From the NCBI GenBank assembly GCA_947173495.1, contig CAMWFQ010000032.1, positions 1-44,893 of the forward strand: a stretch of DNA of 44,893 nt. The letters run 5' to 3'. The notes under the pieces are model-generated. The model saw only the letters and a program-made list of their open reading frames with translations, was not told where the DNA came from and made no database searches. Both the position numbers and the translations under genes were made by a program. Origin of the DNA: an uncultured Lachnospiraceae bacterium. GTDB lineage: Bacteria > Bacillota > Clostridia > Lachnospirales > Lachnospiraceae. Shown in pieces: positions 6,868-42,096 of the stretch. Position 1 is the first letter of the stretch, and the number at the start of each line of letters is the position of its first letter.

Positions 6868-8799
6868 TCATTTATATCCTCCGTCTATATATGATTGTCT
6901 ATGATGAAGCTGCTCCAGGTAAATAAGCAAAACAGAAATATCTGCAGGAGAAACTCCTGAAATACGTGATGCCTGTCCCACAGACACAGGATGAAATGAC
7001 TTTAATTTTTGTCTTGCTTCAATACGAAGGCTCGGTACATCATCATAATCTATATCCGGAGGAATCTTCTTATTTTCCATTTTTTTGAACTGTTTTACCT
7101 GGCGAAGCTGTCTTTCTATATAACCTTCATATTTAATTTCAATTTCCACCTGTTCAATTACCTGACTTGGAAGTTCAGTTCTATCAGGATCTAATTCCTG
7201 CAATATGTCATAATTCAGTTCTGGCCGGCACAATAATTCAGCTAAATTAGAACCTGTTTTTAGAGATGTACTTCCGTACTTTTCCAAAAAACTCTGATTT
7301 TTTTTAGAAGCTCCTATTTTAACATTTTTAAGACGATTAATTTCATCCTCTATTAATTTCTTTTTTTTCACAACTTCATCATACTGCTCTTTCGATATAA
7401 GACCTACTCTATATCCCTTTTCTCTTAATCTGAGATCCGCATTATCCTGTCTCAATAAAAGTCTGTATTCCGCCCGGGAAGTCATCATACGATAAGGTTC
7501 ATAATTATCCTTTGTAACCAGATCATCAATTAAAACACCTATATATCCCTCTGACCTGTCAATAATTAATGATTCTTTTCCAAGTATAAACTGAGCAGCA
7601 TTAATTCCTGCAATCAAACCCTGAGCGGCCGCCTCTTCATAACCACTGCTCCCATTTATCTGTCCACCGCTGTAAAGTCCTTCTATTTTTTTAAATCCTA
7701 AAGTAGGATAAAGCTGCTTTGGATTAATACAATCATATTCAATTGCATAAGCATTTCTTACTATTTCACAATTTTCCAATCCAGGTACTGTCCTGTACAT
7801 AGATAATTGTACATCTTCCGGAAGAGATGAGGACATTCCTCCCACATACATCTCATTTGTATATAATCCTTCCGGTTCAATAAAAACCTGATGCCTTTCT
7901 TTATCCGGAAATTTTACAACTTTATCTTCAATAGAAGGACAATATCTTGGTCCTGTCCCTTCTATTACTCCGGCATAAATCGGAGAACGGTCAAGATTTT
8001 TTCTTATAATTTCATGTGTATTTTCATTTGTATATGTCAGATAGCATGATACCTGATCAATCTGAACAGAATCCGGATCCGTTGAAAAAGAAAAAGGAAC
8101 GACTTTTTCATCGCCAAACTGCTCTTCCATTTTTGAAAAATCAATGCTTCTTTTATCCATCCGTGCCGGTGTTCCTGTTTTAAAACGATTTATTTCAATT
8201 TCCATCGATAAAAGAGAATCTGTCAGATAATTTGCTGCCTGAAGACCATTTGGACCAGTATATGTAATAGACTCTCCACACAAACATCTTGCTTTTAAAT
8301 AAGTGCCTGTACATAAAACTACTGCCTTACATTCATAAATTATTCCCGTAAAAGTTTTAACCCCTGTAATTTTTTTTATATAGCCGAAATCTGAATTATC
8401 AATTTTCTTCCAAATCAGTTCACATACTTCCGCCTGCTTAATTATTATATTTTTCTGGTTTTCAAGAACTTTTCTCATAGAATGACTATATTTCTGCTTA
8501 TCAGCCTGTGCACGAAGTGAATGCACTGCAGGTCCCTTTGAAATATTAAGCATTTTGGATTGTATAAAAGTCTTATCAATATTTTTACCCATCTCTCCTC
8601 CTATTGCATCAAGTTCTCTCACAAGATGTCCCTTAGAGGATCCGCCAATATTAGGATTACAGGGCATAAGAGCAATACTGTCTATACTGACCGTAAAAAT
8701 AACCGTTTTAAGTCCGAGTCTTGCACAGGCCAGAGCGGCTTCACATCCGGAATGTCCTGCACCTATCACACAAACATCTGTACCTTTTATTATCTTCAT
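6868..8799 (-). CDS. mnmG: tRNA uridine-5-carboxymethylaminomethyl modification enzyme MnmG (GidA)
   Basis: FAD-dependent enzyme that, with MnmE, makes the cmnm5 modification at the wobble uridine of several tRNAs. The 643-residue protein begins with the dinucleotide-binding motif [12 protein letters not shown] (about 11-22), followed by [21 protein letters not shown] sequence and the C-terminal GidA-associated domain ([19 protein letters not shown]). Length is normal (about 620-650). It begins 13 nt after mnmE; GAGGA precedes the ATG. Confidence 0.97.
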
Positions 8800-19550: not shown

Positions 19551-22061
19551 ATGGAAGATAATATTTTTGACAAAATCCATGATGTAGACTTGAAAAAAAC
19601 CATGGAAAACTCTTATATTGATTATGCAATGAGCGTTATTGCCGCCAGAGCACTTCCTGATGTAAGAGATGGACTAAAGCCTGTGCAGAGAAGGGTTCTT
19701 TATTCCATGATAGAACTTAACAATGGGCCTGATAAGCCTCACAGAAAAAGCGCACGTATTGTGGGTGATACAATGGGTAAATATCATCCTCACGGAGATA
19801 GTTCTATTTATGGGGCGCTTGTAAATATGGCGCAGCCCTGGTCGTTTCGATATCCACTGGTAGATGGTCATGGAAATTTCGGTTCCGTTGATGGAGACGG
19901 AGCTGCTGCTATGCGTTATACAGAAGCCAGACTTAGTAAAATATCTATGGAGCTTCTGGCGGATATCAATAAGGATACTGTTGATTTTATTCCTAACTTT
20001 GATGAAACAGAAAAGGAACCTTCTGTTTTGCCAAGCCGATATCCGAATCTTCTGGTAAATGGAACAACAGGAATTGCTGTAGGAATGGCCACTAATATTC
20101 CTCCTCACAATTTAAGGGAGGTAGTAGATTCCATCATTCAGATTATAGATAACAGAATAAATGATGACAGGGATACCAGAATAGAAGAAATTCTTTCTAT
20201 TGTCAAAGCTCCTGATTTTCCTACAGGAGGTATTATTTTAGGCACAAGGGGGAGTGAGGAGGCTTACAGAACAGGACGTGGCAAGATAAGAGTCCGCGCA
20301 GTGACAGATATTGAAACAATGTCCAATGGTAAAAACAGGATTGTAGTGACAGAGCTTCCTTATCTGGTAAATAAAGCAAATTTAATACAAAAGATTGCAG
20401 AGCTGGTTAAATTAAAAAAAATAGATGGAATTACCGATCTGAGAGACGAATCCGACAGAGAAGGAATGAGGATTGTCATTGAGCTTCGTCGTGATGCCAG
20501 TGCGAATATTGTGCTCAACAGCCTGTTTAAGCATACGCAAATGCAGGATACTTTTGGAGTGATCATGATTGCTCTGGTTAACAATGAGCCTAAGGTATTA
20601 AATATTCTTGATATGCTGAAGGCTTACATAGCACATCAGGAAGATGTTGTTACAAGAAGAACCAGATATGAGCTAAATAAAGCAGAAGAAAGAGATCATA
20701 TTTTACAGGGATTGTTGATTGCTCTTGATTATATTGATGAAGTAATCAAAATTATCAGAGCAAGTCGTTCTACACCGATTGCAAAAGAAAGTCTCATAGA
20801 GAGATTTGATCTTACGGATCCTCAGGCTCAGGCAATTGTGGATATGAGACTCCGCGCACTCACAGGATTGGAAAGAGAAAAGCTTGAAAATGAGCATCAG
20901 GAACTGCTTGTAAGAATAGCAAGGTTAAAGGAGATACTTGCGGATGAAAAAATTCTTTTAGGTGTGATCAGAACAGAAATTAAAGAAATATCTGATAAAT
21001 ATGGAGATGACAGAAAGAGTAAGATAGGATTTGACGATTCTGATATTACCAGAGAAGATATGGTTCCTAATGAGAATACCATTATTGCCATGTCAAATCT
21101 GGGATATATCAAACGAATGACAATTGATAATTTTAAATCCCAGCATAGAGGCGGAAGAGGAATCAAGGGAATGCAGACCATAGAAGATGATTTTATAGAA
21201 GATCTTCTTATGACAACTACCCATCATTATATTATGTTCTTTACCAATTTTGGACGTGTATACAGACTTAAAACCTACGAGATACCGGAAGGAAGCCGCA
21301 CTTCAAGAGGGGTTGCAATTGTAAATCTTCTTCATTTAAATCCTGATGAAAAAATAAGTGCAATTATTCCAATTAAGGATTATGAAGAAGATAAAAATCT
21401 GTTTATGGTAACTAAAAACGGCATCATCAAAAAGACCAGCGTTATAGAATTTAAGAATGTGCGTAAAAACGGCCTGGCGGCTATAACCCTAAAGGAAGAT
21501 GATGAGCTGATAGAAATAAAGGTTACTGATCAAAATACAGAAATTTTCCTTGTAACAAAGTTTGGTATGTGCATTCGTTTTAAGGAAACAGATCTGCGCG
21601 CAACAGGAAGATCGTCCATGGGTGTAATTGGAATGAACCTTAATAAAGGGGATGAAATTGTTGGCATGCAGCTTGATCATCAGGGAGATTCTCTTCTTAT
21701 CGTTTCTGAAAATGGAATGGGAAAGCGTACTCTTTTAGAAGAGTTTGGTGTTCAAAAGCGAGGAGGAAAAGGTATAAAATGCTATAAGGTTACCGATAAA
21801 ACAGGATATGTAATAGGAGTAAAAGCGGTAAATGATGAGCATGAAATCATGATGATTACCACAGGAGGGGTAATTATTCAGATTCCAATGGAAGATGTAT
21901 CAACGATTGGACGTATTGCCTCAGGAGTAAAATTAATTAATCTGGATGATGGAGTAACAGTTGCACAAATTGCCAAAGTAAGAGAAAAGGTTTCAGACGG
22001 CGATTGTGAAATGGAAGATGAGACAGATGAAGAATATGAAGAAGATACAGAAATAGAGTAA
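19551..22061 (+). CDS. gyrA: DNA gyrase subunit A
   Basis: DNA cleavage and rejoining subunit of gyrase. 836 residues. The catalytic tyrosine lies in [12 protein letters not shown]. The quinolone-determining stretch reads [19 protein letters not shown]: the Ser83 equivalent is Ser, but the Asp87 equivalent is Gly. The C-terminal wrapping domain has the gyrase-box-like QHRGGRG and a second RGGKG, which supports GyrA rather than ParC. The tail is very acidic. AGGAG precedes the ATG. Its stop codon overlaps the first bases of the repeat element at 22061. Confidence 0.97.
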
Positions 22062-22149
22062 ATCGAGTAGGAAAGGTTTATATTCCCCTACTCGCCGCGC
22101 GGGGTGTGTGCTGCATAGCAGCAATTTTCCATACACACCCCTGCGCATA
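22061..22149 (+). repeat. Terminator-associated structured repeat, copy A
   Basis: An 89-bp element running from AATCGAGTAGG to TGCGCATA. Hairpin 1 pairs CGAGTAGG (22064-22071) with CCTACTCG (22087-22094). The palindromic linker CCGCGCGG follows. Hairpin 2 has an outer stem 22101-22109 / 22133-22141 (GGGGTGTGT with ACACACCCC), an inner stem-loop GCTGC-ATA-GCAGC (22110-22122) and about 10 unpaired bases on the 3' side. The TGCGCATA end runs directly into the terminator stem at 22150. Related copies are at 28813 and 41257. Confidence 0.85.
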
Positions 22150-22187
22150 AAAATATCCCGGAGAGTAAAATCCCCGGGATATTTTTT
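22150..22187. terminator. Bidirectional terminator after gyrA and the sugar operon
   Basis: A 12-bp stem (AAAATATCCCGG with CCGGGATATTTT) and a 12-nt loop, with T-runs on both strands, lie between convergent gyrA (plus) and the operon ending at 22186 (minus). Its right arm overlaps the stop codon of the latter. On the minus strand its T-tract abuts repeat copy A. Confidence 0.88.
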
Positions 22188-23022
22188 AAAGATTAAACCA
22201 GTCTCTGTAGCCCATTGATATCAGATTATCACGGCTGATTTTCAGGCTTTCAAATGGATCACGTCCATAGGTATCATCCTGCTCGATCAGGAAGTATTTG
22301 CTTCCTCCTGCAAGTCCTGCTTCAATACATTCTTTAACAGGGAGATTTCCTTCTCCAACTTCAGCAAATTCTACCAGATTATAAAACTGACTCATAACTT
22401 TTTTGATGTCAAAATCATCTTCCGAAACCTGTATCTGTGCAATTCTGTAATCCTTCAGATGAAGAAGACGGATACGCCCGGCATATTTATTGATGAATTC
22501 CACAGGATTCTCGCCTCCGCGGTGGATCCAGTGAATGTCCAGTTCGAAACCCATTTTTCTGGTATTATCTTTAATGATATCGAGAAGATATTGTCCATCA
22601 TATTTAACAAATTCCACATGGTGATTATGATAATAAAGATCGATCCCATGTTCTCCAAGTCGTTCAGCCATTTCATCTGCCTGTTTGACAAAATCAATTG
22701 CCTTTTCTCTGCTTCCCATACATGGGAAAGGCAGCATGCCTATGCGAACCATATTCGTATCAAGAGCCTTACAGTCATCCACCACCTTATCAAATTCCGT
22801 TTTCAATAAATCCAATGAAGCTGTATTGGCGGCTATTTTGATTCCATATTCATCACAGGCTTTTTTCATGCCGGAAACATTTTCTTTTGTCATGGGAATC
22901 TGGCTTACTTCCATACAGTGGTATCCCATTTCCGCACATGCTCTTAATGTCTCATAAGCTCCCAGCTCATCTACTTTTTTCTTTATGGTACTCATTTGAA
23001 TACCGATTAATCCTTTATTCAT
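22186..23022 (-). CDS. Sugar phosphate isomerase/epimerase (TIM barrel, AP endonuclease 2 fold)
   Basis: 278-residue cytoplasmic protein of the xylose-isomerase-like TIM-barrel family. It begins MNKGLIGIQMSTIKKKVDELG, has a metal-site-like HNHHVEF (about residues 151-157), ELDIHWIHRGG, LLHLKDYRI and the end VEFAEVGEGNLP and FLIEQDD, giving the usual E/D/H/E metal ligands. The substrate is unknown. It is the last gene of a four-gene minus-strand operon with two Gfo/Idh/MocA oxidoreductases, so a keto-sugar isomerase or epimerase acting on their products is likely (inference). GGAGGA lies 11 nt before the start. Confidence 0.85.
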   Translation of the reverse strand: MNKGLIGIQMSTIKKKVDELGAYETLRACAEMGYHCMEVSQIPMTKENVSGMKKACDEYGIKIAANTASLDLLKTEFDKVVDDCKALDTNMVRIGMLPFPCMGSREKAIDFVKQADEMAERLGEHGIDLYYHNHHVEFVKYDGQYLLDIIKDNTRKMGFELDIHWIHRGGENPVEFINKYAGRIRLLHLKDYRIAQIQVSEDDFDIKKVMSQFYNLVEFAEVGEGNLPVKECIEAGLAGGSKYFLIEQDDTYGRDPFESLKISRDNLISMGYRDWFNL

Positions 23023-28058: not shown

Positions 28059-28754
28059 ATGCTGGAAGAACTGAAAAAACAGGTATATGAGGCAAATATG
28101 AAGCTGCCTTATTATGGTCTCGTTACATTTACATGGGGAAATGTAAGTGGAATTGACAAAGAAAAAGGACTTTTTGTAATCAAACCGAGCGGTGTTGATT
28201 ATGATAAACTGACGCCGGAAGCTATGGTAGTGATGGATTTGGAGGGAAACAAAATAGAAGGAAATCTGAATCCTTCTTCCGATACTCCTACCCATTTGGA
28301 GATTTATAAAGCATTTCCTGAAATAGGAGGAATTGTTCATACTCATTCTTCCTATGCTACCAGCTGGGCACAGTCAGGAAGAAGTATTCCCTGCTATGGA
28401 ACGACACATGCAGATTATATTTACGGGGAAGTTCCCTGCTTAAGATGCCTTACAAAAGAAGAGATTGATCAGGCATATGAAGAAAATACAGGGCATCTTA
28501 TCGTAAATGAGTTTCTTCGTATGAATAAAGATCCTATGGCGGTGCCTGCCGTACTCTGCAAAAATCATGGGCCTTTTACATGGGGAAAGGATGCAATGGA
28601 TGCCGTACATAATGCAGTGGTTCTGGAAGAGGTAGCCAAGATGGCTTATCGCACGGAAACCATTCAGCCTAAAGTTGCTCCGGCTCCTATAGAACTTCAG
28701 AATAAGCATTATTTCCGAAAACACGGAGAAAACGCTTATTATGGACAAAATTAA
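28059..28754 (+). CDS. araD: L-ribulose-5-phosphate 4-epimerase
   Basis: Converts L-ribulose 5-phosphate to D-xylulose 5-phosphate, linking arabinose use to the pentose phosphate pathway. 231 residues, the same length as E. coli AraD and strongly alike throughout: [49 protein letters not shown]. The zinc ligands correspond to H94, H96 and H170 (in NHGPFTWGK). Ends [18 protein letters not shown] precedes the ATG. It is followed by a strong terminator at 28781. Confidence 0.95.
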
Positions 28755-28780
28755 GTAAATGATATTTTGACTATTTGTAA

Positions 28781-28809
28781 AGTGCAGAAGAAAAACTTCT
28801 GCACTTTTT
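28781..28809 (+). terminator. Rho-independent terminator after araD
   Basis: Perfect 10-bp stem AGTGCAGAAG / CTTCTGCACT with loop AAAAA and a run of five T. Repeat copy B begins four bases after the T-tract. Confidence 0.93.
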
Positions 28810-28812
28810 CCA

Positions 28813-28902
28813 TATGCGCAGCCCCATGCAGAAGAAGCATGCCGCTAAAGCGGCGCATGGGACGCGCGGCGAGTAAGGGAAAAAGTATCCCCCTACTCGA
28901 TT
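28813..28902 (-). repeat. Terminator-associated structured repeat, copy B
   Basis: A 90-bp element on the minus strand from AATCGAGTAGGG to TGCGCATA. Hairpin 1 pairs 28870-28878 with 28891-28899 with one mismatch. The linker is CCGCGCGT. Hairpin 2 has an outer stem CCCATGC / GCATGGG (28823-28829 / 28855-28861), an inner GCCGC-loop-GCGGC (28841-28854) and 11 unpaired bases. Its TGCGCATA end faces the araD terminator. The gap to the DUF4173 gene (28903-28959) contains nothing else recognised. Confidence 0.85.
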
Positions 28903-28959: not shown

Positions 28960-30648
28960 TTAATAACCGTAACCGGTATAGTCAAAAATATCAGACTCAA
29001 TATTCCATGCAAAATCAGAATTTGATTTATAATACTCTGTGAAGTATTTTTCTCCAATCCAACGGGAAAGATTCCATTTACGAAAAGATTTTTTTGCAGG
29101 AAGACAATTTCCGCCTTCAAAACATATTTTGACCAGTTGATCTTTATCATAGTCATAACTGGATTTTACAATGCGGGCAGCGTAGTTTCTAAACCACCAG
29201 GTGGAACTATAACCCAGTTCATCTGCTTTTCCAAAGATCACCGGTGCAGCATCACTGGAAAGGTTCTCCAGATAATTAAAATTTGACCGAAAACTGTTTT
29301 CTGTTCCGGTATCTGATTCAGAAACAGGATTACTCAGATTATACCGTGCAATCCAGTAATCCGGATGAGAAAAAGAAAAGACAAGATATAAAATGGTTAC
29401 AGTGATCAGACAATATCTGGTAAAGGGAAACTTTTCCCGGTATATTACAATTAATGCCCCGCTTACAAGAAGAAAGATCACAGACAAAGCCCATAAAACG
29501 AATACTCTCAAAAAAGTCAGCCGATATACCTGGATATAAAGGAGCATACGATAGGTACTTGAGGCGATCATGATATAGGTACAGACGGAAATAAAAGTAA
29601 GGATTCCCTTTAAGATTTTGTTTTCCTGAAAATGTCTGATGCATGTAAGCACCAGTAAAAGATTGATTATGCATACAAATACCAGCTGAAAAAATCCTTC
29701 TCTTGCATAGGATGCATAGGTATAATTTTCCGGCAGTGTTCCAAATCCTCCAAAAAGATATACAACCTGGATATAGCAAAATATGAGATATACAATCGAT
29801 AAGATTCCGGTAAATGTAATTCCCATGACAGGCTCCAGATTTTTCTTTTCAGTTACATTCTCCTTCAGATTATGAAGCGAGATTCTGCATAAAATACTGT
29901 AGGAAGCAAAAAATACAGCCAGGAAAAGGAAGGAAACACCAAACAGAAATGTAAAGTTAAAATCCAGGGTAAAAAGACGGTCACAGATATCGGAAAATAC
30001 GGCATCCGCCTCATACAGAAGGATTAATATTACAAATAACAGAGGGAAGGATATCAAAACACCAAAGAATACATATTTCCCTTTTCCTTCCGGTTTATTT
30101 TCTTTTTCTCTTCTGATTTTCAGAAAGAGAGAAAGGTCCGTAAAGGGTCTGAATATAAATACAAAGCTGGTGCAGATAATATTTGTAATAGCTCCTGCAT
30201 ATTTTGGAATATCCCAGTCTCTATCTTCATATAAATTATGAAGGATCATATAAAAAAACAGTAAAAAGATTCCAAATTTATTAAAGAAAATCAAAACACC
30301 AGAATCAGTGGTGCAGGTGTTTATTCCCAGAAGGATCAGGCTTGTAATGATAAAACGGGAAAACTTTTTGGCGGTAATTCCTGACTTTTTCAAATAAAAG
30401 AAGAAAAACAAGCAGGTTCCGCCTACGAAAAAAGGGTAAGTGATCCCCGAGTGGTTTTTATATAACAATAATGTATAAAAAAAGGCATAAATACAGCTCC
30501 CTGTTCCTATAAATGAGAAAAGGGGATCCAGTGTCCTGACAGAATTTTCGGGTAAATTTTGTGATGTTTCAGATTTTGTATTCTGTACAGAAGGAGTTTC
30601 ATTATTCACTGATTCTATAGCAGAAGAATTTGTATTAATATTTTCCAT
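28960..30648 (-). CDS. DUF4173 multi-pass membrane protein
   Basis: About 562 residues. A polar N-terminal stretch of roughly 50 residues (Asn/Ser/Thr/Glu-rich) precedes a series of about 12 hydrophobic segments, and a soluble C-terminal region of about 120 residues follows (with RYNLS, SSTWWFRNYAARIV, FAWNIES). This organisation and the pattern around YLIFCYIQVVYLFG fit DUF4173 of Firmicutes; the function is unknown. It starts 10 nt after the stop of the Xre-like gene. The ribosome site GGAGG lies inside the end of that gene, 15 nt from the ATG, so coupled translation is likely. Confidence 0.78.
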   Translation of the reverse strand: MENINTNSSAIESVNNETPSVQNTKSETSQNLPENSVRTLDPLFSFIGTGSCIYAFFYTLLLYKNHSGITYPFFVGGTCLFFFFYLKKSGITAKKFSRFIITSLILLGINTCTTDSGVLIFFNKFGIFLLFFYMILHNLYEDRDWDIPKYAGAITNIICTSFVFIFRPFTDLSLFLKIRREKENKPEGKGKYVFFGVLISFPLLFVILILLYEADAVFSDICDRLFTLDFNFTFLFGVSFLFLAVFFASYSILCRISLHNLKENVTEKKNLEPVMGITFTGILSIVYLIFCYIQVVYLFGGFGTLPENYTYASYAREGFFQLVFVCIINLLLVLTCIRHFQENKILKGILTFISVCTYIMIASSTYRMLLYIQVYRLTFLRVFVLWALSVIFLLVSGALIVIYREKFPFTRYCLITVTILYLVFSFSHPDYWIARYNLSNPVSESDTGTENSFRSNFNYLENLSSDAAPVIFGKADELGYSSTWWFRNYAARIVKSSYDYDKDQLVKICFEGGNCLPAKKSFRKWNLSRWIGEKYFTEYYKSNSDFAWNIESDIFDYTGYGY

Positions 30649-30658
30649 AATTTTAATC

Positions 30659-30889
30659 TTATACCTCCGTTTCTGAGTTGTTTTCATCATCTACAAATTC
30701 CAGAATGTCTCCTGGCTGGCATTGAAGTGCCCTGCAGATCGCATTCAGGGTTGAAAAGCGTATGGCTCTGGCTTTATTGTTTTTCAGTATGGAAAGATTG
30801 GCAAGGGTAATATCTACATCTCCTGCAAGTTCCGTAAGGCTTTTTTTCTGTTTTGCCATTTCCACATCAAGATTTATGATGATTGCCAT
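30659..30889 (-). CDS. Small Xre-family helix-turn-helix regulator
   Basis: 76-residue transcription regulator consisting of little more than one HTH_3/Xre domain: MAIIINLDVEMAKQKKSLTEL, a helix-turn-helix at about 18-43 (AGDVDITLANLSILKN) and AICRALQCQPGDILEF. Such YozG-like proteins commonly accompany DUF2975 membrane proteins and are thought to regulate their own operon. A dyad over the operon promoter at 31449-31490 is a plausible target. Confidence 0.9.
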   Translation of the reverse strand: MAIIINLDVEMAKQKKSLTELAGDVDITLANLSILKNNKARAIRFSTLNAICRALQCQPGDILEFVDDENNSETEV

Positions 30890-41256: not shown

Positions 41257-41344
41257 AATCGAGTAGGGATGCTTTTTCTCCCTACTCGCCGCGCGGCCCG
41301 CACGCCGCTTTAGCGGCATATTCCTCTGTGCGGGCCTGCACATA
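41257..41344 (+). repeat. Terminator-associated structured repeat, copy C
   Basis: An 88-bp element from AATCGAGTAGGG to TGCACATA. Hairpin 1 pairs 41260-41269 with 41279-41288 over 10 bp. The linker is CCGCGCGG. Hairpin 2 has the outer stem GGCCCGCAC / GTGCGGGCC (41295-41303 / 41328-41336), the inner GCCGC-TTTA-GCGGC (41304-41317) and 10 unpaired bases. It ends against the terminator at 41348, whose minus-strand T-tract (ATTTTTATG) touches the element. Confidence 0.87.
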
Positions 41345-41347
41345 AAA

Positions 41348-41376
41348 ATCCCCTGAAATTATTTTTTTCAGGGGAT
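41348..41376 (-). terminator. Terminator of the 41401 membrane-protein gene
   Basis: Perfect 11-bp stem ATCCCCTGAAA / TTTCAGGGGAT with a 7-nt loop and a T-run on the minus strand, 25 nt after the stop of the upstream minus-strand gene. Confidence 0.9.
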
Positions 41377-41400: not shown

Positions 41401-42096
41401 TCATGCAAAAAATTCTTCCAGAAGATCCTCCAGTTCATCCTGATACCCGCTTACTGCAGATTCCGGCTCCTTTTTGAAAGTCTCCTCCGGTACTTTTTCT
41501 TCTGTCATTTTCTCTCCCAGAAATTCCTTTACATACTTCTCTCTTTTTTTGATTCCTTCCTCCATCGCATTTTCTTTTTCTGTTTCAAGTCTGGGAGCAT
41601 AATGATTTTCCAGATAATCTGTCAAATTTGTTTTCAGTATCTTTCTTTTCTCCTGTGCATCTACGATCCCTGTTATAGAAAAATACAGATATAACCCGAG
41701 TATACTGATCAGATAATAGGGAATAATCTGAAATATGGTACTTCCTGATGCCAGCGACAGACAAATGGATAATCCTGTCATTAATACAGAGAGCATCATA
41801 AACTGTCCTGAAATATGATCCAGACGCGTCAGTTTTATTTGGGCGAAGCAGACTTTTTGAAGGAACTTGTCCACAAAAACATCTGTATTTACCATTTTAC
41901 CGTTTAATTTGTAATAACTGGCATATTTCTCTTTACACTGCTTTAACTGTTTATTTTTTGTATCTGACATATGATCTGACTGAGATATCATCCTGTAATA
42001 AATGATTCCGGATATCATCTGACAGATAATACTGAAAAATAAAAAAAACGCTATCAGGCCCGTAAGAATTTTGTGCTCAAATAATATTATAAACAT
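41401..42096 (-). CDS. Membrane protein of unknown function
   Basis: 231 residues. One N-terminal membrane segment (about 8-32), a polar region with NTDVFVDKFLQKV, two further segments (about 98-117 and 122-143) and a long charged C-terminal region (Lys/Glu-rich, likely helical). I do not recognise a named family. It has no close partner: 172 nt separate it from the divergent TSCPD gene. A ribosome site GGAGGAAAT precedes the ATG. Confidence 0.7.
   Translation of the reverse strand: MFIILFEHKILTGLIAFFLFFSIICQMISGIIYYRMISQSDHMSDTKNKQLKQCKEKYASYYKLNGKMVNTDVFVDKFLQKVCFAQIKLTRLDHISGQFMMLSVLMTGLSICLSLASGSTIFQIIPYYLISILGLYLYFSITGIVDAQEKRKILKTNLTDYLENHYAPRLETEKENAMEEGIKKREKYVKEFLGEKMTEEKVPEETFKKEPESAVSGYQDELEDLLEEFFA

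Follow-up and report, generated by a model that had tools for sequence, protein, structure and literature searches.

Group IIC (bacterial-C) introns insert right behind intrinsic terminators and into the lagging-strand template (PMC8919778). Another class of small insertions comprises the repetitive extragenic palindromic (REP) sequences and bacterial interspersed mosaic elements (BIMEs), which are small, extragenic, palindromic, present in more than 100 copies and clustered, and are presumed to be mobilised in trans by TnpA-REP (RAYT). In PMC6006769, a GT[AG]G foot is part of the REP definition, and lagging-template targeting and REP mobilisation are attributed to the Y1 enzyme group. Here, we describe a family of 88-nucleotide repeats from an uncultured Lachnospiraceae bacterium, three copies of which lie in contig CAMWFQ010000032.1 of assembly GCA_947173495.1 (positions 1 to 44,893; this whole stretch of 44,893 nucleotides is called the window). 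The repeats are probably a non-autonomous element, similar to REPs and to miniature inverted-repeat transposable elements (MITEs), that enters the lagging-strand template as single-stranded DNA, behind terminators. Since the group IIC introns choose the same site, insertion at a terminator has a precedent, but the intron features are absent from the repeat, which has a length of 88 nt, no reverse transcriptase, no match to an Rfam intron family and no RNA-type wobble.

The three copies are located at 22061..22149 (+; copy A), 28813..28902 (-; copy B) and 41257..41344 (+; copy C), with cores at 22061-22147, 28815-28902 and 41257-41342 and scores of 94.7, 94.6 and 95.8 bits, respectively. The first-pass annotation had placed three copies of 88-90 nt at these coordinates and on these strands, correctly, and the ends AATCGAGTAGG and TGCRCATA, the linker CCGCGCG, the outer stems and the loop hairpins that it described can all be read in the window. 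In copy A, hairpin 1 (CGAGTAGG..CCTACTCG; 22064..22094, +) is predicted by folding, and its pairs were counted in the covariation alignments described below. It is followed by the linker and by hairpin 2 (22097..22146, +), predicted from both fold and covariation, which has a GCGC foot, a variable outer stem, an inner GCTGC..GCAGC hairpin and an asymmetric loop with a 10-nt unpaired side; the copy ends in TGCGCA. The fold energies of copies A, B and C are -42.7, -50.3 and -46.9 kcal/mol (z of -7.6, -6.4 and -6.7 against 200 dinucleotide shuffles, none of which equalled the real fold), and a chance origin of these folds is excluded. Each copy abuts a terminator-like hairpin, listed without a strand. 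The hairpin at copy A (22150..22187) has A/T tracts and lies between the convergent open reading frames (ORFs) 19551-22061 (+) and 22186-23022 (-), the one at copy B (28777..28810) lies behind ORF 28059-28754 (+), which is convergent with 28960-30690 (-), and the one at copy C (41345..41376) lies behind ORF 41401-42096 (-). Copy C sits past the T tract of its hairpin, antisense to that ORF.

The family is large. An exact pattern for hairpin 1 has 30 matches in the source genome (G000) and none when reversed as a control. A covariance-model search, as proposed in the first-pass annotation, was carried out with a model built from 29 copies of this genome and gave at least 150 matches in it, all with E up to 0.01 and the last few short or weak, as well as relatives across the Lachnospiraceae. 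The surroundings of all 150 matches, which form 115 clusters, have been examined. The 150 copies make up 121 arrays, 101 of them single in the list of the model; 39 copies abut a further unit and 111 are terminal, and tandem copies are undercounted because decayed or shorter units adjoin some of the single copies. Most copies lie between called ORFs, and some arrays overlap an ORF of the crude caller used. Elsewhere, the exact pattern is found mostly in Lachnospiraceae records (at least 108 stretches with at least 55 accession prefixes, counted by hand). The distribution in the genus is patchy, with matches in 20 of 36 genomes and from 0 to at least 64 copies per genome under stricter filters, and 24 of 295 genomes in an order-wide sample match, the source genome included.

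No match was found among plasmids and GenBank phages at E 1e-3 with one copy as the query. A single contig of the viral collection carries the exact pattern (L300; IMG/VR 3300013414_000178, 8080-8167), which may be either phage or host DNA. Rfam has no match to the repeats, either in the window at the gathering score or in six loci of own and foreign DNA at E up to 1; in the searches of own and foreign loci the gathering score was reached by T-box leaders only. The repeats were also not described in the literature searched, although many subscription papers were beyond its reach. The first-pass annotation knew no named family with this layout, and neither of the outcomes it had named as counter-evidence, few further copies or an exact Rfam match, was observed. 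The repeats belong to a large and seemingly unnamed family of small DNA elements with two hairpins, found in gut bacteria.

The position of the copies follows a simple rule. After the final TGCGCA, the 111 terminal copies of the source genome continue with T in 94 cases and then with A in 90-93 cases at each of five places. A strong stem follows in 60 of 110 flanks (6.6 in shuffled flanks), with a median start 7 nt after the copy. The gene on the terminator side runs toward the element in 95 of the 114 arrays with a called gene and away from it in 19, as judged by crude ORF calling. The usual order on the strand of the gene is thus stop codon, terminator hairpin, TTTTTA and the reverse complement of the element. 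TGCGCA is most likely the true end of the element. The TA(AAAA) behind it would mark the border of the genomic terminator, or it would hold no more than one base of the element, the rest being target. An A comes after the T tract in 44 of 52 terminators that bear the element and in 18 of 60 others in the DNA fetched from the source genome.

The same rule is seen outside the source genome. A foreign set taken from 80 of the at least 108 stretches and the one viral contig gave 91 matches, of which 83 were used after 8 weak or cut matches were dropped; 81 of these 83 have no further unit behind them, and 79 of them have flanks that are long enough. A strong stem is present on the 3' side in 50 of 79 flanks (4.7 in shuffled flanks) and on the 5' side in 12 of 79 (5.8 shuffled), and 62 of 71 foreign copies are antisense to the gene on the terminator side. 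Two flanks of the source genome are of a different kind. At C21:51415 the flank appears to read as the end of a tRNA gene behind the T tract, and at G000:C25:64240 (L171) the copy is followed by GTCGCCCCCACCCGTAAAACGGGTGG.., without an A tract or terminator, until the contig ends; this flank may be the end of an inserted mobile element.

The orientation of the copies is related to replication. The strand of the element agrees with the rest of its contig in 68 of 71 arrays, a count that excludes 9 arrays because their contigs are mixed and 41 because their contigs, among them that of the window, have fewer than four arrays. Arrays between convergent genes, for which there is no gene-side preference, are oriented with the contig in 14 cases and against it in one, and gene direction alone therefore does not explain the agreement. 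In 107 of the 121 arrays, the + strand as given is the one rich in C, with the skew taken from fetched flanks. In Lachnospiraceae bacterium COE1, which has 50 copies, the strand flips with the GC skew for 17 of 20 copies on two sampled scaffolds; the remaining 30 copies, which lie on other scaffolds, include 14 of 16 on one strand of scaffold C1 and 11 on C14 and C15 that look mixed. A divergent version with 74 BLAST matches is found in G077, a single-contig genome of another family. Of its long listed matches, 37 of 40 agree with the skew and flip at both of its switches, at 340-420 kb and 1900-1930 kb, and the other listed matches are short antiparallel hits of the palindromic end. A TGTTTCACGTGAAACA site before a ParA-like gene, seen in a near-identical locus of genome G109, lies near 1.9 Mb of G077; such a site would mark an origin. 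Under standard fork geometry, the reverse complement of the given strand lies on the lagging-strand template. The GC skew thus points to insertion into the lagging-strand template.

The arrays carry information on the history of the insertions. Among 24 abutting pairs from 15 arrays, 15 are less than 90% alike, a similarity that random pairs also show (mean 0.78, 5-95% range 0.69-0.90), and nine are at least 91% alike, five of them 97-100%, as would be expected from local duplication. In 17 of the 24 pairs, a closer dispersed sibling exists for the unit on the terminator side than for the outer unit, with 6 ties and 1 opposite case in a rounded list. This polarity fits repeated insertion at the terminator edge or a weaker constraint on the outer units, and the arrays look as if they were mostly built by successive insertions. 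No target duplication has been detected, since shared 4-mers are present in 33 of 61 cases compared to 26 in shuffled flanks (shuffled maximum 38). A further subtype with CACCGGGCACCCGTCAGC..GCTGACATTTTTCCTCTGGGTGCCC, scored lower by the model, has been observed at G000:C4:114152 (L100) and G000:C10:169984 (L129), which are 98% identical to each other; similar tails are the outer units in other arrays.

The covariation reported in the first-pass annotation is strong in three alignments. Double-change cells number 466 compared to 176 after shuffling in 128 distinct matches of the source genome (94.0% and 83.4% of cells paired) and 398 compared to 122 in 107 distinct rows, of which about 90 are foreign (96.1% and 83.7% paired). 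These two alignments (A3 and A4) were fitted to the model and lean toward its structure, and a MAFFT alignment of 29 copies agrees with them (92 and 33 double-change cells). The outer stem of hairpin 2 recurs in few forms, such as CCCCATGC, GCCCGCATG, GGGGTGTGT, GCCCGCAC, GGGCGCAC and GCCCGTGC, and these occur with different hairpin-1 variants. The changing stem is largely a set of recurring subtypes mixed with different variants of hairpin 1. The unpaired side of hairpin 2 contains TTCC in 93 of 125 long rows of the source genome and in 80 of 101 others.

If the pairing were maintained in RNA, G.U should far exceed A.C on the transcribed strand. The non-Watson-Crick cells of the copies in the source genome comprise 111 G.T, 126 A.C and 84 other mismatches (of 3501 cells), and those of the mostly foreign copies 98 G.T, 68 A.C and 44 others (of 2905 cells), with 41 of the 98 G.T in one column. 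On the other hand, the terminator hairpins beside the copies of the source genome, read on the strand of the gene, show 62 G.T, 11 A.C and 28 others; for this control, 88 of 111 flanks had a good stem and were scored without favouring wobble. A second control with tRNAs (G.T 82, A.C 0; 51 distinct tRNAs) was discarded since ARAGORN may bracket only real pairs. As G.T and A.C are about even in the element and 62 to 11 in the adjacent terminators, the pairing of the element lacks an RNA-like character on both strands. The first-pass annotation had suggested selection on folded RNA or on single-stranded DNA; the structured, covarying family is confirmed, while the RNA half of that suggestion is not supported. 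The adjacency to terminators, the orientation to replication and the polarity of the arrays lay beyond what that annotation could see. Selection on DNA hairpins fits the pairing, and so does the correction of imperfect palindromes (quasipalindrome correction).

Based on the observed copy number, patchiness, terminator edge, replication strand and array polarity, and on the lack of both target duplication and wobble bias, insertion of a non-autonomous element as single-stranded DNA is the reading we favour. The terminator adjacency together with the constant orientation to replication suggests spread via the single-stranded DNA exposed at replication forks. Each copy would arrive as single-stranded DNA at a fork, where a terminator on the lagging-strand template may form a DNA hairpin with a T tract behind it and serve as the landmark. 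The element, as the reverse complement of the given strand, would be joined directly to the 3' side of TTTTTA. The mobilising enzyme probably recognises the hairpins of the element, and such recognition would keep the pairing while the sequence drifts. Later insertions would reuse the same terminator edge, so that head-to-tail arrays would grow from the terminator side. The enzyme presumably acts in trans and, in the source genome, has perhaps been lost or is of an unrecognised kind.

Several observations weigh against this proposal. We infer transposition and have not observed it, and no exact empty site was obtained, as the two element-free orthologous gene pairs have diverged spacers. The gene before copy B (28059-28754) has 24 other ortholog loci in the genus, all without the element, and the same convergent gene follows in genomes G005 and G020 (65% and 58% amino-acid identity), in both cases across a diverged spacer. 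The best candidate for an empty site, a 96-base gap in G138, was rejected as a truncated copy that retains the long hairpin, and it is not used here. No mobilising gene was found, and the Y1 transposase family PF01797 is absent from the source genome (0 matches), from G020 and G012, and from G109, G138, G290 and G063, four of ten further carriers. No gene-carrying version was recognised among the scanned loci. Where the genes on both sides read with the element (+[el>]+), three arrays are oriented with the contig and two against it, and the A of TTTTTA may be a base of the element and not of the target. In the arrays, the profile bits of all units show no age difference between terminal and internal units (p=0.17, in a cruder unpaired test), and the paired sibling result could reflect weaker constraint on the outer units.

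An autonomous version was also sought among separated halves of the element and was rejected, because the 193 unpaired half-matches are largely opposite-strand hits of hairpin 1 or halves beside a diverged partner. One pair of halves in the source genome, about 1.1 kb apart, encloses a 312-amino-acid (aa) ORF on the other strand, which does not look transposase-like by eye (no profile test was made). No autonomous element with shared ends was recognised in the loci scanned, and no genome-wide search by ends was made.

The alternative that fares best, although we consider it unlikely, is that the repeats are palindromic elements derived from IS200/IS605, of the palindrome-associated transposable element (PATE) or REP type, and that the Y1 HUH transposase responsible for their movement was recently present and has been lost here. 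The hairpins near both ends, the lack of target duplication, the fixed 5' flank on the active strand and the lagging-template orientation are all shared with that group, the last being a property of Y1 enzymes together with REP mobilisation, as noted above. Y1 genes are present in G028 (29 copies of the repeat, two Y1 genes), G077, G205, G301, G061, G219 and G199. However, three of the four genus genomes with the most copies (G000, G020 and G012) have no Y1 gene and only G028 has two, while six of ten further genomes have one, and a Y1/RAYT driver was rejected as there is no consistent correlate. The Y1 gene is also missing from G109, whose loci are 98-100% identical to those of G077, although this 250-contig draft could miss an insertion sequence. 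No parent insertion sequence was found, and 30 Y1 loci of relatives and 4 further ones yield just one 18-nt repeat match (E 0.06, L340), which lies among the 30. The GT[AG]G foot is not present at a hairpin; GTAG occurs only inside the stem of hairpin 1, where its T is C in about a third of the copies of the source genome. Dependence on terminators is not known for the IS200/IS605 group, and the association with terminator hairpins sets the repeat apart from its PATEs.

We regard it as improbable that the repeats are non-autonomous relatives of group IIC introns and depend for their mobility on an intron-type reverse transcriptase acting in trans, with their RNA reverse-spliced or copied into the lagging-strand template behind terminators. 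The site choice would be accounted for, and RVT_1 genes are present in 23 of 36 genus genomes. However, high-copy G020 has none, and the RVT_1-richest genomes G013, G017, G019, G021 and G029 carry 1, 0, 0, 3 and 2 copies. The source genome has two RVT_1 genes, one of 404 aa in a set resembling diversity-generating retroelements (DGRs) and one of 933 aa that lies beside Cas1 and has a primase domain, neither with a Pfam maturase domain. As there is no intron-type gene in this genome, a reverse transcriptase driver was rejected. The lack of RNA-type wobble tolerance on either strand and the Rfam intron families, which match neither the window at the gathering score nor the six loci at E up to 1, argue in the same direction, as do the element ends, which do not look like intron ends. 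The DGR-like set (L361; G000:C12:103500-108500) comprises the RVT_1 protein of 404 aa, a 135-aa protein without a Pfam match and a 319-aa DUF6273 protein. The 933-aa protein (L362; G000:C5:209000-215500) has reverse transcriptase and TOTE-type primase domains in Pfam and lies in an RT-primase CRISPR neighbourhood. Reverse transcriptases of a 418-aa open frame are found in G012 and G028.

We give an equally low probability to a functional DNA signal, such as a site for gyrase, a nucleoid protein or a fork protein, that is kept by selection behind terminators and is not a selfish insertion. Escherichia coli REPs bind gyrase downstream of genes, and the strict orientation, the DNA-level pairing and the conserved TTCC would fit such a signal. 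A range from 0 to more than 64 copies between species of one genus, the 24 element-free ortholog loci of one neighbour gene and arrays that resemble successive insertions of different subtypes speak against it, although function and mobility are not mutually exclusive. A 3' untranslated region element or small RNA is very improbable and was rejected despite the strong fold and covariation, since the copies usually lie behind, and not before, the terminator of the neighbour gene and antisense to it, lack the wobble bias of the adjacent terminators, and are oriented by replication beyond gene direction.

By comparison with known repeats, we file the family among the REP/MITE-like repeats, with an unusual target rule. 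Unlike REPs and BIMEs, the repeat is a two-hairpin unit with a bulged second hairpin, has the terminator edge as its target, and occurs in a genome without a Y1 gene. Like classical MITEs, it is short, non-autonomous, intergenic and present in many copies, but it has no target duplication, and no terminal inverted repeats were seen in the window version on reading the alignment, without a separate search; the distant g84 version does carry TATAGTAAACGAC..GTCGTTTACTATA. Integron attC sites are likewise structured single-strand sites in polar arrays, but the arrays of the repeat have no cassettes or genes between units.

Distant versions, scoring 37 to 56 bits, contain hairpins 1 and 2, the latter in most cases with a side similar to TTCC, as well as GTGYGCAT and two further hairpins, one short and GCCCGGAGGGC-like, the other long. 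The versions in G077, G109, G138, G205 and G301 likewise end at an A tract and hairpin, as judged by eye, and the g84 form ends in TATAGTAAACGAC repeats without this context. These versions may be one lineage or partly convergent. Family f11 (g84 and g128; L427-L433) consists of repeats of about 150 nt that start with TATAGTAAACGAC and end with GTCGTTTACTATA, with a core that resembles the window element. Several contigs of the g84 and g128 assemblies begin within about 45 bases of such a repeat.

More speculatively, and with the odds somewhat against it, the family may represent an undescribed transposable element that reads terminators as single-stranded DNA hairpins at the fork. Its enzyme would belong neither to the Y1 HUH transposases nor to the group II intron reverse transcriptases, and its polar arrays would be a record of insertions made one after another at the same terminator. 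At least two forms, one of 88 nt and one of about 140 nt that has an extra hairpin, would have this target in common across families of one bacterial order. Repeat arrays may also break short-read assemblies: in the source genome, a copy lies no more than 120 bases from an end of contigs C2, C10 and C25. Small repeats are usually dismissed as debris; for the present copies, position, strand and order within arrays combine into a consistent account of their arrival. If this account is true, terminators would serve as insertion sites not only for group II introns, a mobilising activity of unknown kind would be at work in common gut bacteria, and the orientation of the copies would be a simple computed marker of replication direction in draft genomes.
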